Origin: Niastella koreensis GR20-10
Lineage (GTDB): Bacteria; Bacteroidota; Bacteroidia; Chitinophagales; Chitinophagaceae
Assembly: GCF_000246855.1 (NCBI RefSeq)
Contig: NC_016609.1
Span: forward strand, 8,196,744 to 8,260,743
Direction of reading: 5' to 3'
DNA: 64,000 bases
The notes under the pieces were generated by a model. It had not been told where the DNA came from, ran no database searches, and was given only the letters and a program-made list of their open reading frames with translations. This document shows, one piece after another, positions 32,848 through 39,141 of this stretch. How positions within the stretch are numbered: the stretch's first letter is position 1; each line of letters opens with the position of its first letter. A program made the translations under genes and the position numbers.

Positions 32848-33744
32848 TTATAAATTATAAAATTGAATGGCATTGCTGCCAAATACTTTTTCCCTGTCTT
32901 CTGCCGAAAAGCTCTCCATATATTTCTCCAGCAAACTTTTCCATTGTACATAAATACCGCTGAGCAACATAACCGGCCAGTCGCTGCCGAACAGCAGTCT
33001 GTCGGTACCGAATGCTTCAAACACCACATCGAGGTAGGGGAAGAAATCGGCTGCGCTCCATTCTTTCCAGTTGGTTTCGGTAAACAAACCAGATAGTTTG
33101 CAGCACACGTTCGGAAATTTGGCTATTTCCTGCATGCCTGCGCGCCAGTCGTCTATCTGTTTATGACGAATGTCGGGTTTGGCGCAATGATCTACCACAA
33201 ATGGCTGATCGGGAAAAGCCTGGACAAAATCAATAGCTGGTTGCAATTGATTATGGAAGATGAGAATATCGTACGTATAGTTGTATGCCTTTAAAGCTGC
33301 CACGCCACGGCGGAAATTTGGCCGGGCCAGAAAATCGAGTGGTTCGCCCTGCACTACGTGGCGGTATCCTTTAATGAAGGGATACTGCGAAAAGTATTGC
33401 AAACGCTCTGCGATGTTATCGGCCTGTAAGTCGATCCAGCCTACCACGCCTTTGATAATGGAATGTGTTTTGGCCAGTTCAACCAGGAAATGGGTTTCCA
33501 TTTCAGTTTGCGTTGCCTGTACGGCTACCACGCCATCCACATTATTTCTTTTTGAAACCAGCGCCAAGTGTTCCGGAAGATAATCCTGCTGAAGGGTCTT
33601 CATGGAATTATCTATCCAGTCGTAGGTTTTTTTATCGTATTTCCAGAAGTGAACGTGGGAGTCGATAACGATCCCGGCCCCCTCCCGTCCTCCCCCGGTG
33701 GGGGAGGGATTGGCAGCATCGTAATATTTTTTGAGAAGTGTCAT
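32848..33744 (-). CDS. Amidohydrolase (L-fuconolactonase-like) with repeat-derived N-terminal insert
   Basis: A 298-residue TIM-barrel hydrolase of the amidohydrolase_2 / L-fuconolactonase family. It starts functionally at VIDSHVHFWKYD (HxH metal motif), with VVDHCAKPDI and LLFGSDWPVM further on. It would open L-fuconolactone to L-fuconate. Residues 12-25 ([13 protein letters not shown]) are encoded by palindromic repeat copy A inserted between the start codon and the first barrel strand; family proteins normally start directly at the HxH strand. The following SDR begins five bases after its stop. Confidence 0.85.
   Translation of the reverse strand: MTLLKKYYDAANPSPTGGGREGAGIVIDSHVHFWKYDKKTYDWIDNSMKTLQQDYLPEHLALVSKRNNVDGVVAVQATQTEMETHFLVELAKTHSIIKGVVGWIDLQADNIAERLQYFSQYPFIKGYRHVVQGEPLDFLARPNFRRGVAALKAYNYTYDILIFHNQLQPAIDFVQAFPDQPFVVDHCAKPDIRHKQIDDWRAGMQEIAKFPNVCCKLSGLFTETNWKEWSAADFFPYLDVVFEAFGTDRLLFGSDWPVMLLSGIYVQWKSLLEKYMESFSAEDREKVFGSNAIQFYNL
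33673..33709 (-). repeat. GC-rich palindromic repeat, copy A (in-frame in amidohydrolase)
   Basis: GGCCCCCTCCCGTCC followed by an 8-base perfect stem CCTCCCCC-GGT-GGGGGAGG. It is translated in the leftward amidohydrolase as [11 protein letters not shown]. Confidence 0.8.
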
Positions 33745-33763
33745 TTTCTAAATTTCAATAGCG

Positions 33764-34159
33764 TTAGCAATATATTATCCCTGCAAATGATCGGAGTGTT
33801 TTCAATCTCCCCCTCCACCGGAGGGGGCCGGGGGGGAGGCCGAATATTTTCTCCATGAGGATCCATTTTTCACCAGGCTTTGCCCAGGGAAGCGCCTGTT
33901 GGTACTTCCACATCAGGCTTTCCCATTCCTGAACCCTGGGGTTGGCGGCATCGGCCTTTGCCTTTTCAGCAAAGGTAAACTGCTCATTGGCCTCGATGAT
34001 CATAAACAACCGGTTACCCGTGCGATAGATGTCGAGCACGTCAATGCCAGCCGATTGAATGCTTTGCACTATCTCGGGCCATATTTCATCGTGATGGCGC
34101 TCGTAATCGGCAATCATTGCCGCATCATCTACCAGGTCCAGGGCAAGACAATACCTCAT
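33764..34159 (-). CDS. L-fucose/L-rhamnose mutarotase family protein with repeat-derived C-terminal tail
   Basis: A small (about 105 core residues) mutarotase of the RhaM/FucM-like family that interconverts sugar anomers. The family blocks YERHHDEIWPEI, YRTGNRLFMI and EKWILMEKIF are seen. The family normally ends at about this last block. Here 25 more residues follow, and the first dozen ([12 protein letters not shown]) come from palindromic repeat copy B, so the native stop has been lost by insertion. The gene lies between the fuconate-pathway hydrolases. Confidence 0.85.
   Translation of the reverse strand: MRYCLALDLVDDAAMIADYERHHDEIWPEIVQSIQSAGIDVLDIYRTGNRLFMIIEANEQFTFAEKAKADAANPRVQEWESLMWKYQQALPWAKPGEKWILMEKIFGLPPGPLRWRGRLKTLRSFAGIIYC
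33806..33842 (+). repeat. GC-rich palindromic repeat, copy B (at the mutarotase C-terminus)
   Basis: The stem CCCCCTCC-ACC-GGAGGGGG is followed by CCGGGGGGGAGGCC. It is in opposite orientation to copy A, 96 bases away. It replaces the end of the mutarotase reading frame. Confidence 0.8.
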
Positions 34160-35118: not shown

Positions 35119-35234
35119 ACGAAAATTTCCGGTATCGTTCCCGGAAGTTTTGCTTTTTCTTATCTGTTTTATGCAAGAAAAGTGTATACTAACGATCATT
35201 AGCTTTTTTGACCTAACTTTAGGTGGATTTTGTA

Positions 35235-35792
35235 ATGCATGCTAATATGAGTTATACACCAATTAATAAAGTCAGAATAGTTACTGCTGCCTCCCTTTTT
35301 GATGGTCACGATGCTGCTATTAATATTATGCGGCGCATTTTACAGTCAAAAGGCGCTGAGATCATTCACCTGGGTCATAACCGGTCTGTAGCGGAGATCG
35401 TGGAATGCGCCATAGAAGAAGATGCCCAGGGCATTGCCATCACCAGCTACCAGGGTGGCCATGTGGAGTTCTTCAAATACATGAAAGACCTGCTGGATGA
35501 GAATGGCTGCGGCCATATAAAGATCTTCGGCGGCGGCGGCGGCACCATTCTGCCCCAGGAGATTACTGAGTTGCATAATTATGGGATCACGAGGATCTAT
35601 AGTCCGGATGATGGAAGAAGGTTAGGGTTGGAAGGGATGATTGAGGAGGTGATACAACAATGCAATCCAACGCCGACCGGCCCCCTCCCGGCCTCCCCCG
35701 GTGGGGGAGGAGAAGGGCATCACTCCGACTATTGGGAAGCTCCTAAAAAAATGGAACGGGAAGTTACCGTTGGGAGAAAAAAGAGACATTAG
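35235..35792 (+). CDS. icmF: B12-binding domain of an IcmF-type acyl-CoA mutase (split-off N-terminal fragment)
   Basis: This frame encodes the cobalamin-binding Rossmann domain normally at the N-terminus of Icm[15 protein letters not shown] (B12-ligating histidine), [15 protein letters not shown] and [11 protein letters not shown]. The domain is about 145 residues and is followed by repeat copy C (translated [12 protein letters not shown]) and about 24 unrelated-looking residues. It overlaps the G-domain/mutase frame, which is offset by one base. The two frames meet near an A7 run at 35745-35751. It may work in trans as a small subunit, or the gene may be damaged. The frame opens with a GTG at 35223; ATG at 35235 or 35247 is preferred. 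Confidence 0.8.
35677..35710 (-). repeat. GC-rich palindromic repeat, copy C (inside icmF linker)
   Basis: The order GGCCCCCTCCCGGCCTCCCC-CGGTG-GGGGAGG matches copy A, with the same CCTCCCCC-GGT-GGGGGAGG stem. It sits exactly where the B12-domain frame ends its family similarity and the second frame begins (GTG at 35701 is inside it). Confidence 0.8.
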
Positions 35793-38700
35793 AAGAATAG
35801 CCAGGGCTATAACGCTTGCTGAAAATAAAATGGAAAGTGAGCAATTGTATGATGGCTCATCTGTAACGATCAATCAGTTGAAAGCAGATCCTTTACTATA
35901 TCAAAGGCTTAAGGAATTCGCTTTATCACATAGAAAAGAGGCTACCATGGCTGAAGAAATACTATGGGATAAGCTAAAGAGTAAAAGAGAAGGATATAAA
36001 TTCAGAAGGCAGCATATAATAGGAAATTTTATTGCTGACTTCGCCTGTTTAAAGAAAGGATTGGTTATTGAAGTAGATGGTAATTATCATCAATTGCCTG
36101 AGATGCAAATCAGCGATGAAGAAAGAACAAAAGCTTTAAACAAATTGGGATTTGATGTTTTAAGGTTTACCAACGATGAAATCACCTACGAAATTGAAAA
36201 AGTACTAAACAAGGTACAAAACACGCTCTCTCAACTTCCCGATAAAGAGTTAGACGATATTAATAGCGAAGCTTCCAACTCCCCCTCCACCGGAGGGGGC
36301 CGGGGGGAGGCCGGAGGTTTGGAGGCTTGTGTTCTCGGCATCACCGGCACCGGAGGCGCCGGAAAATCATCAGTTACCGATGAAATAGTCAGGCGGTACC
36401 TGAATGCTTTTGCGGAGAAAACAATTGCGGTTATTTCTGTTGACCCCTCCAAAAAGAAAACCGGTGGCGCCCTGCTGGGCGACCGTATCCGGATGAACAG
36501 CATCCATTCTCCCCGGGCTTATATGCGTTCCCTGGCTACCCGCGACAGCGACGTGGCCCTGAGCGAACACGTGCAGGAAGCCATCGATGTGTGTAAAGAA
36601 GCCGCCTTTGATCTTATTATCCTGGAATCTGCCGGGGTGGGGCAAAGCGATGTGAGCATCCTCGACTACTGCGATGTAAGCCTGTATGTAATGACGCCTG
36701 AATATGGCGCGGCTTCGCAATTGGAGAAGATCAATATGCTCGATTACGCCGATGTGATCGCCATTAATAAATTCGATAAAAGCGGCGCACTGGATGCGCT
36801 GCACGATGTGCGCAAACAGTTCAAACGTAACCATGGTTTATGGTCGGCCAAAGATGAGGAGCTTCCGGTAATTGGCACCATTGCCGCCCAGTTTAACGAC
36901 GCCGGTATAAATGAGTTGTTTAAAAAACTGATGGGTATCATCAAAACAAAAACCGGTACCGAATTTGGTGCTTTTGAAGCGTCTCCGCCAGCTGGCAGAG
37001 GAGGTTTAGAGGGGGTTACTACCACCAAATCGCAGATCATTCCACCCAAACGCGTTCGCTATCTCTCAGAAATTGCCGATGCCAATCGGGGTTATGATGT
37101 ATGGGTGAAAGAACAGGGGGCGCTGGCAACACAGCTGTATCAAATAACCGGAACCCTGAATGCGGTTAATAGTTTATCTGCTGCCGTAAAAGATGAACTG
37201 ACCACGCTTAAAAATAAACTGTCGGCACAATTACATCCCGAATGTAAAAAGCTGGTGGAGCAATGGCCTGCACTCGTAACCAAATATAAAGCTGACTTTT
37301 TTGAATACCAGGTGCGCGATAAAGTGATTAAACAATCAATGATTACCAAATCGCTCAGTGGCACCCGCATACCAAAAGTGGTATTGCCCAAGTACAACGA
37401 CTGGGGTGATATATTAAAATGGCAATTACAGGAAAACATTCCGGGTGAATATCCCTTTACTGCCGGCGTGTTCCCGCTGAAACGCGAAGGCGAAGACCCC
37501 ACCCGCATGTTTGCCGGTGAGGGCGGCCCCGAGCGCACCAATAAACGTTTTCACTATGTATCGTACGATCAGCCTGCGCGGCGGTTGTCTACAGCGTTTG
37601 ACAGTGTAACGCTGTATGGCGAGGATCCTGCTCATCGTCCGGATATTTATGGTAAGGTTGGTAACAGCGGCGTGAGCATTGCCACAGTAGATGATGCCAA
37701 AAAATTATACAGCGGTTTTGATCTGTGCGATCCCAAAACATCGGTGAGTATGACCATTAACGGTCCGGCGCCGATCATACTCGCGTTCTTTATGAATGCA
37801 GCTATCGATCAGTTGTGTGAAAAATGGATAGAAGAAAACGGACAATGGCCAAAGGTGAATGGTGAGTTAGATCAAAGATTCAAACAACTTCCTAAACCAG
37901 CTTATTACAACCCTTCGGCGCCGGAGCGCTTACCGGAAGGCAATAATGGATTGGGGTTAGCATTATTGGGTGTATCTGGCGAAGACGTATTGCCTAAAGA
38001 AGTATATGCCAAAATAAAAGCGGAGGCGCTGGCCCAGGTACGCGGTACCGTGCAGGCAGACATCCTGAAAGAAGACCAGGCGCAGAACACCTGTATCTTC
38101 AGCACTGAATTTGCCCTGAAACTGATGGGTGATGTGCAGGAATATTTCATTCAGCAAAAGGTGCGCAACTTTTACAGCGTAAGTATCAGCGGTTATCATA
38201 TTGCAGAAGCAGGCGCCAACCCTATTACACAATTGGCCTTTACCCTGGCGAATGGTTTTACATATGTAGAATACTACCTGAGCCGCGGCATGCATATAGA
38301 TGAGTTTGCTCCTAACCTCTCATTCTTCTTTAGTAATGGGATGGATCCTGAGTACAGCGTGATAGGCCGTGTGGCCCGACGCATCTGGGCCAAGGCCATG
38401 AAGTATAAATACAAAGGCAACGACCGCAGTCAAAAGCTGAAATACCATATTCAAACATCGGGTAGAAGCCTGCATGCGCAGGAGATCGATTTCAATGATA
38501 TAAGAACCACCCTGCAGGCATTGTACGCCATTTACGATAACTGTAACAGCCTGCATACAAATGCGTATGATGAAGCCATTACCACACCTACCGAAGAAAG
38601 CGTGCGGCGGGCGATGGCTATTCAGCTCATTATTAACCGCGAACTGGGCAGCGCCAAAACCGAGAACTTTATTCAGGGCTCTTTCCTGATTGAAGAAATG

Positions 38701-39141
38701 ACCGACCTGGTGGAAGAAGCTGTGCTGACAGAGTTCGACCGCATCACTGAACGGGGTGGCGTGCTGGGCGCTATGGAGCGTATGTATCAGCGCAACAAGA
38801 TCCAGGAAGAAAGTTTGTATTACGAAAGTTTAAAACACAATGGTGAATTGCCCATCATTGGCGTGAATACTTTTTTGAATAAAAAAGGAAGCCCTACCAT
38901 CTTGCCTACCGAAGTAATTCGCAGTACTACCGAGGAAAAAGAACAACAGATCCGGAACCTGCAGGCCTTCTGGAAACGGAATGAACAAAGATCGGCCGAC
39001 ATGTTAAACCGCCTGAAGAAAGTGGCCATCAACAATGGAAACCTTTTTGAAGAACTGATGGAAACCGTGAAGTATTGTTCGCTGGGGCAAATAACCCATG
39101 CCTTGTTTGAAGTAGGGGGACAGTATAGAAGAAATATGTAA
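35701..39141 (+). CDS. icmF: IcmF-type fused GTPase/acyl-CoA mutase carrying an inserted DUF559 endonuclease domain
   Basis: IcmF couples a MeaI-type GTPase chaperone to a coenzyme-B12 isobutyryl-CoA mutase. Here residues about 20-45 ([15 protein letters not shown]) look like the native linker. Residues about 64-176 are a foreign DUF559 domain, residues 194-206 are repeat copy D, and then come the GTPase ([12 protein letters not shown] at 213-224) and the mutase barrel to the C-terminus. Residues about 427-440 come from repeat copy F. Frame start GTG 35701 lies within repeat C; ATG 35830 is another option. The B12 domain is in the preceding frame. The GTPase and mutase motifs look intact, so activity with the separate B12 protein is possible but unproven. 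Confidence 0.8.
35890..36228 (+). other. DUF559 (Vsr-like PD-(D/E)XK) endonuclease domain inside icmF
   Basis: The encoded segment has the full DUF559 pattern: [44 protein letters not shown] and [14 protein letters not shown]. The candidate catalytic residues are D113 and E124-x-D126 (numbered from 35701). DUF559 proteins are small predicted nucleases related to the very-short-patch-repair fold. Its N-terminus ([16 protein letters not shown]) resembles the start of free-standing family members, so a whole gene seems to have landed in frame. It is bracketed by inverted repeat copies C and D. Confidence 0.8.
36279..36314 (+). repeat. GC-rich palindromic repeat, copy D (in-frame in icmF)
   Basis: The stem CCCCCTCC-ACC-GGAGGGGG is followed by CCGGGGGGAGGCCGG, nearly identical to copy B and inverted relative to copy C. 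It is translated as [13 protein letters not shown], immediately before the GTPase P-loop. Confidence 0.8.
36980..37020 (+). repeat. Variant palindromic repeat, copy F (in-frame in icmF)
   Basis: CTCCGCCAGCTGGCAGAGGAGG shares the CCGCCAGCTGGC palindrome with copy E. It is translated as [12 protein letters not shown], between the GTPase and mutase domains, where a linker would be expected. Confidence 0.6.

Follow-up and report, generated by a model that had tools for sequence, protein, structure and literature searches.

A DUF559 nuclease domain inside icmF of Niastella koreensis and its inverted triplex-type repeats as a candidate mobile cassette

The DUF559 segment of the icmF locus

The window analysed here is a stretch of 64,000 nucleotides of Niastella koreensis GR20-10 (NC_016609.1, positions 8,196,744 to 8,260,743 of the forward strand), and our subject is a DUF559 nuclease domain that lies within its icmF gene, together with the GC-rich repeat units on either side of it, which we read as a candidate mobile cassette. 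The icmF region of the window (35223–39141, + strand) consists of two frames, namely an open reading frame with the B12-binding domain (35223–35792; Pfam PF02310, expect value (E) 2.6e-14) and a second one with the DUF559, MeaB-like GTPase and methylmalonyl-CoA mutase domains (35701–39141), which is open from 35653 and has its first start at 35701. The DUF559 domain (PF04480, 35905–36228, + strand; E 1.1e-30, 106.1 bits against a curated cut-off of 20.6), with its D..ExDG..H residues intact, falls between the IcmF linker and the GTPase P-loop, and the complete domain that a preliminary description of this DNA had recognised at this place is hence confirmed. The accompanying statement that it lies in frame inside icmF holds for the DUF559–GTPase–mutase part and fails for the B12-binding domain, which in the window occupies a different frame. 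Alignment with three other carriers and five empty congeners places the divergence of the two frames near a run of seven A residues (35745–35751, + strand) that is shorter in the other icmF carriers, and the split may represent either a true frameshift or a sequencing error.

Comparison with congeners shows that the DUF559 segment is not common to all icmF genes. Ten genomes of the genus were searched, and nine icmF orthologues reach the insertion site, the match in the tenth (G386) being cut short. Four of the nine carry DUF559 (the window, G365, G209 and G288) and five lack it (G317, G253, G342, G071 and G150). In the three carriers other than the window the frame is open throughout the B12–DUF559–GTPase–mutase series and encodes 1281–1294 amino acids, as compared with 1124–1134 in the empty genes. 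Relative to the latter, the insert of the window spans approximately 35840–36327 (+ strand).

Two units of the same kind, in inverted orientation, bracket the domain. The left unit (35681–35710, + strand) reads tag CCCCCTCC, spacer, stem CCTCCCCC, loop and stem GGGGGAGG, whereas the right one (36281–36310, − strand) has the tag CCTCCCCC and the stem CCCCCTCC; in both, the tag mirrors the stem arm at 8 of 8 positions. The inverted pair reported initially is therefore real. Its use as the boundary of the insert does not hold for the left side, where the unit lies upstream of the insert in the linker between the B12-binding and GTPase domains. The linker between this unit and DUF559 is related to that of the empty relatives and, judged by eye, is more diverged from it than the remainder of icmF. 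A strict unit scan found one, two and one units in the three other icmF carriers and none in the five empty loci (5.8 kb each). Among aroC loci of another genus, taken as a comparable set, the number of units is two in each of two carriers, one in L244 and in L246 and none in the carrier L243, and the same scan detects no units in two loci without DUF559. In the empty aroC of G260 an unrelated loop, some 30 amino acids long, occupies the insertion place.

The hairpins of these units recur elsewhere in the 9,033,684-base genome of the window, in which a profile search recovers a single DUF559 domain. The right-hand hairpin is present in 22 exact copies, as against none of a reversed-pattern control, and with up to two mismatches there are 45 matches, some sites being counted on both strands. 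The tag accompanies 20 of the 22 exact copies (loci L192–L213, with L198 and L205 as the exceptions), and the left-hand hairpin type has 10 exact genome copies. Solitary hairpins without a nuclease gene are scattered through this genome.

A mirror rule links the tag and the stem

The sample used for the general analysis of the units comprised 91 loci from whole genomes of the host's taxonomic family and 80 named loci (the best 80 of 579), yielding 172 distinct DUF559 domains. For the family, loci were taken by descending score in the profile search, with one skipped, and the named loci bear titles of Bacteroidota groups, except for L114 (Nitrotoga). As the sample consists of best-scoring loci, the percentages given below hold for the close relatives of this DUF559 and not for the whole Pfam family.

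A C-rich hairpin was present at 256 of the 344 possible ends. The order of the unit is tag, 3 nt, C-rich arm, loop and G-rich arm, in which the tag is the mirror image, and not the complement, of the C-rich arm. Thus, the repeats, which had at first been called palindromes, are indeed palindromic but are more than that on account of the mirror tag. Scored over the 229 unique ends that were informative, tag and stem matched as mirror images at 0.837, as against 0.737 ± 0.0055 upon exchange of equally long stems (z score 18), and the direct-repeat control of the same match gave a z score of 1.8. The best spacer was 3 nt in 155 of these 229 ends.

Purine-motif triplexes permit the triplets G*G-C, A*A-T and T*A-T. 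With the spacer set to 3 nt, 162 of 247 unique ends deviate at no more than one position from the corresponding code, as compared with 60.7 upon permutation (largest value 74). In the 178 clear ends among these 247, an interior C of the stem faces C in 97% of instances, and an interior T faces T in 61%, A in 35.5%, C in 2.6% and G in 0.9%, i.e., T or A in 96.5%; since the 178 ends were chosen for their fit, the informative part of these figures is the split between T and A. Read from the sequence of the G-rich strand, the facing pairs are the triplets G*G-C, A*A-T and T*A-T. Further, within orthologous sites, tags match their own stems better (0.927, 111 ends) than the stems of other species (0.815, 310 pairings), with the own stem matching better in 20 of 21 site-sides and equally well in the remaining one. 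The permutation statistics given here ignore descent, with the exception of this comparison of own and swapped stems, which was run within sites. These patterns suggest that the units could fold into triple-stranded DNA.

Localization of the units around DUF559

The association of DUF559 with inverted repeats was scored by comparing 400 nt upstream of the domain with the reverse complement of 250 nt downstream. Scores of at least 26 were obtained at 119 of 168 DUF559 loci (four were dropped for short flanks) against 31 of 1166 shifted placements, and scores of at least 30 at 97 of 168 against 6 of 1166, which bears out the link between the nuclease and the repeats that had been suspected from this one locus.

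The strict unit scan covered three sets, namely the family loci, the named loci and a set of 17 loci outside Bacteroidota from a plasmid collection, the last being drawn from Pseudomonadota, Cyanobacteriota and Deinococcota (17 of 39 records, some of them chromosome-sized). Within 100 nt of DUF559 the unit density was 5.34, 5.53 and 4.71 per kb in the family, named and plasmid sets, respectively, falling to 0.04, 0.05 and 0.06 per kb at 1.5–4.5 kb, a difference of about 80–130-fold. At least one unit lies within 300 nt in 75 of 93 family, 54 of 74 named and 13 of 17 plasmid loci, and units are present on both sides in 55 of 93, 42 of 74 and 7 of 17. The tags point outward rather than inward by 126:16 in the family set and by 99:5 in the named set. 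Both ends are inverted unit pairs at the loci of Sphingomonas (L234) and Pseudanabaena (L238), as is one end in Sinorhizobium meliloti, and free-standing DUF559 genes are bracketed as well. As controls, GIY-YIG nucleases of the same taxonomic family had no units at 23 loci (7 of 30 were dropped as short), and mutase paralogues had one unit in 41 kb.

PF04480 was found in 208 of 394 genomes of the host's family, with a strong match, by our own division, in 172. The motif is present in 112 of these 172 genomes, in 12 of 36 with a weak match and in 32 of 186 with none, the mean counts being 5.5, 2.8 and 0.6, respectively (Fisher odds ratio 7.6 for strong DUF559 against the rest, a statistic that ignores relatedness). 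Two genomes without any DUF559 match, G039 and G189, have 28 and 11 motif copies, which could be orphan units or point to another mobiliser.

The nuclease, its hosts and the history of the inserts

The D..ExDG..H motif, which may represent the catalytic residues of an EDxHD-type nuclease, is kept in 163 of the 172 domains. An AlphaFold model of the DUF559 domain (predicted local distance difference test score 83.7) has as its nearest structures 3hrl, a putative Neisseria endonuclease (ngo0050; E 1.6e-7), and 3r3p, the homing endonuclease I-Bth0305I (E 2.0e-4), with Vsr (1vsr) only at E 0.63. The modelled fold is that of EDxHD/Vsr-like nucleases, and a DUF559 gene has been filed in the EDxHD family (PMC9403480). 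The nuclease is, on comparison of the four icmF copies, under selection, because their proportion of nonsynonymous differences (pN) is 0.04–0.11 against a synonymous one (pS) of 0.70–0.77.

Examination of the reading frames, whose lengths are minima since many of the sequences reach no further than 1.5 kb from the domain, shows that 111 of the 172 DUF559 domains lie inside another protein, where at least 120 codons of open frame precede them and at least 100 follow; 41 are free-standing and 20 are joined on one side. The hosts, named by Pfam for 28 representatives and by NCBIfam for eight more frames, include methionine synthase (MetH), LeuS, IleS, MetG, chorismate synthase (AroC), CinA, RecG, an Lhr-type helicase, UvrA, IcmF, tryptophan dioxygenase, adenine deaminase, HsdR, a MiaB-like enzyme, poly-A polymerase, MazG and others. 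Under slightly stricter lengths, 108 in-frame inserts fall into 29 sites, ten of which are used by four or more. The sites are near conserved motifs, with the inserts themselves falling where empty relatives vary. No intein domain was detected around the nuclease by Pfam in 28 host proteins at E 1e-8 and in 8 at E 0.01. Splicing of the insert at the protein or RNA level was considered in view of the proximity of the sites to conserved motifs; it was set aside, although not disproved, because the inserts lie where empty relatives vary.

Individual hosts show further peculiarities. A type I restriction protein HsdR (L002, on contig C9 of G052) combines GIY-YIG and DUF559 domains in one frame of 1380 amino acids, and three LeuS frames (L010, L013 and L019) have two DUF559 copies each. 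In the LeuS of L006, tandem unit-derived peptides (SPKERGNDIPN-like repeats) precede DUF559, and the palindromes seem to have multiplied in place. The MetH–DUF559 protein of L114, from a record titled Candidatus Nitrotoga, groups with those of Bacteroidota, probably through a binning error.

The phylogeny of DUF559 largely follows the insertion sites. A tree of the 94 inserts whose site is used more than once shows 30 changes of the site label, as compared with 70.5 upon shuffling (minimum 64), and the nearest DUF559 from another genus occupies the same site in 59 of 94 cases against an expectation of 7.7.

Comparison with known systems and the Escherichia coli units

The repeats most like those described here are the BoxC elements of E. 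coli, equivalent to PIT and TMECO, for which the motif CCCTCNCCC-N3-6-GGGNGAGGG-N3-GGGNGAGGG has been given and an oligonucleotide of which is reported to form a triplex in vitro (PMC4666352). Both kinds share a C-rich arm, a loop, a G-rich arm, a 3-nt spacer, a G-rich third strand and an occurrence as inverted pairs; our units likewise have a hairpin and a third strand compatible with purine triplets, with the 3 nt as a second loop. They differ in that no gene was known to accompany BoxC/PIT/TM, whereas the units of Bacteroidota bracket DUF559, are variable in sequence and are often located within coding genes. The window units, with 8-nt stems, depart in sequence from the literal TMECO consensus.

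E. coli itself has a DUF559 gene, ycjD, with a match in 3365 of 5426 genomes. A BoxC-type unit follows ycjD in JM109 (175 nt after it) and at L300, with the strict scan finding none at L297, and such a unit lies 210–238 nt from the DUF559 domain in KE47 and H240. In our reading the unit after ycjD fits the printed consensus, from which the S. meliloti unit differs by a longer loop. In the sapF–fabI interval (L289–L300), strains have either ycjD, accompanied in part of them by a BoxC-type unit, or an efflux operon. A clean empty site was not found in E. coli, as the six strains without ycjD have MFS and efflux outer-membrane genes after sapF. The same exchange of the ycjD interval with eefRABCD has been described (PMC12817139).

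In having a nuclease gene and tagged palindromes, with solitary copies elsewhere and some of them intragenic, the system resembles the RAYT/REP elements (REPtrons), which nonetheless combine a tyrosine transposase with GTAG tags as opposed to an EDxHD-type nuclease with mirror tags (PMC3733652). The comparison with RAYT and REP drawn in the preliminary description stands as an analogy only, in that the bracketed protein is of the PF04480 family, the tags are C-rich mirrors and the repeats are of the BoxC/PIT/triplex kind rather than REP. The modelled fold of DUF559 is like that of I-Bth0305I and ngo0050. I-Bth0305I is intron-borne, unlike the DUF559 copies in this sample, with which no intron or intein was seen. 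We know of no nuclease for the Rickettsia palindromic elements, which are mentioned in PMC3733652. Like the present units, those palindromes are inserted in genes for unrelated proteins. An insertion sequence with a known type of transposase and target duplication was considered and rejected, as the Pfam scan of the window insert found no transposase domain and no duplication was recognised in icmF or aroC. Among the matches listed in a search of open-licence literature, no paper was found that joins DUF559, YcjD or COG2852 to palindromic, inverted or intrastrand triplex repeats.

A candidate selfish cassette and its alternatives

As judged from the sequences, the units bracket DUF559 specifically, their tags are directed outward in Bacteroidota, and tag and stem covary by a purine-triplex code. 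We consider the icmF segment to be probably one copy of a widespread, selfish, RAYT/REP-like mobile cassette of about 480 nt with its ends, in which a DUF559 gene of EDxHD/Vsr-like type is combined with inverted units of intrastrand-triplex type (tag, 3 nt and hairpin), and we assign this reading a probability of about 0.62. The nuclease would recognise the folded units and/or the host target and make a nick or break, upon which the cassette could be copied in by repair, no transposase of a familiar type being involved; units that lack the gene would be its non-autonomous offspring. By residing unspliced in a loop that tolerates it, within an enzyme indispensable to the host, the cassette would gain free expression and a protected frame, because a frameshift or stop would harm the host enzyme. 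The nuclease–repeat mobile system tolerant of in-frame insertion that had been proposed for this locus thus gains support from the patchy presence and the repeat association, while its mobility, triplex formation and cleavage, including any action of DUF559 on the repeats, are what we infer. Neither outcome named beforehand as refuting it, a segment shared by all close relatives or a lack of statistical association with the repeats, came about.

The bracketing of DUF559 by repeats with an apparent capacity for triplex folding suggests that this nuclease is the missing partner of the repeat family first seen in E. coli. A more tentative extension, to which we give somewhat less than even credence, is that DUF559 nucleases mobilise the whole bacterial BoxC/PIT/triplex kind across several phyla, the ends being read as intrastrand triplexes instead of by sequence and the autonomous form residing unspliced in essential enzymes. 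If correct, this would provide a candidate engine for a repeat family that has been an orphan since its recognition in E. coli in the 1990s and has been reported from 262 proteobacterial genomes, and would add a natural setting where a biological function of triple-stranded DNA is conceivable. It would also represent a selfish lifestyle, that of an in-frame, unspliced nuclease in LeuS, MetH, IleS, RecG and other proteins, which is easily dismissed as an odd domain fusion. A direct test of the proposal would require one small protein and short oligonucleotides.

Several observations weigh against the cassette. At the locus itself, the left unit is off the edge of the insert, a second unit pair (33678–33839) encloses host-like DNA, and the genome has 32 exact hairpin copies for a single DUF559. 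In icmF and aroC, where the relatives are too diverged for base-exact edges, neither a target-site duplication nor an empty site precise to the nucleotide was found, and no movement of the cassette was seen. Across the sample, the inverted-repeat score is below 26 at 49 of 168 loci, although many of these (e.g., in RecG, among the matches listed) have hairpins of differing sequence on both sides; 38 of 167 loci of the Bacteroidota sets have no strict unit within 300 nt; the tags of the plasmid set are outward by only 17:15; and 15 family genomes have at least five motifs with no strong DUF559 match, six of them having a weak one. From the literature, the sole in vivo test reported for the E. 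coli motif, by footprinting, did not support a stable triplex (PMC4666352), and the DUF559-containing VsrA of Caulobacter has been proposed as a mismatch-repair enzyme (PMC12907096). Finally, at shared sites DUF559 exceeds the host flanks in similarity in just 10 of 129 pairs from different orders and 23 of 229 from the same order, so that horizontal spread, when judged by excess DUF559 similarity, is unsupported in general. As DUF559 is usually less conserved than the flanks, old co-inheritance with patchy loss may explain much of the shared occupancy, and homing is not proven.

The alternative that survives best is site-specific homing, whereby DUF559 would cut a conserved stretch of the host gene and be copied in by homologous recombination, with the units serving not as substrates but as flexible proline/glycine-coding linkers or recombination aids. 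The recurrent sites and the phylogeny that tracks them, the fold near I-Bth0305I, the patchy presence among congeners and the host linker beside the icmF insert, which by eye is diverged as co-conversion would have it, are all in keeping with such a process. Against it, the units covary as structures, occur alone as hairpins by the dozen in the genome and bracket free-standing DUF559 genes as well; moreover, many specificities would be required for 29 sites spread over numerous unrelated genes, and the excess similarity of DUF559 over its hosts is small. We therefore regard it as unlikely.

Rather less probable is that DUF559 has no role in the spread and that triplex units are recombination-prone hotspots which receive nuclease genes as passengers. 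Holder et al. link the motif to genomic instability, and their 2015 survey states that no transposase or integrase remnants were ever found beside it in E. coli (PMC4666352); the replacement of ycjD by an efflux operon in the sapF–fabI interval could be viewed likewise. Against this stand the lack of units at GIY-YIG nucleases of the same family (none of 23), the sharp localization of the units at both ends, their outward orientation in Bacteroidota and their absence from five empty icmF and two empty aroC loci. A separate observation, from an evolution experiment in Legionella pneumophila, names transposase/DUF559 segments as recombination hotspots (PMC12308824). The least probable option is domestication, in which DUF559 would be retained because it benefits the host, either by aiding the enzyme that contains it or by acting in repair as a Vsr-like nuclease: the low pN/pS of the icmF copies, long retention at some sites and the Caulobacter precedent would fit it, but the hosts are unrelated enzymes, presence is patchy within the genus and the ends look like those of mobile elements.

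Further repeats in the window

The second inverted unit pair near icmF, without DUF559, consists of units at 33678–33707 (+ strand) and 33809–33839 (− strand) that lie about the beginning of an amidohydrolase gene, itself on the − strand. Similar units are present in two relatives (L248 and L249) and in none of six others aligned. A further GC-rich partial palindrome, in which the strict scan recognises no unit, lies at 36980–37015 in the linker between the GTPase and mutase domains of IcmF.

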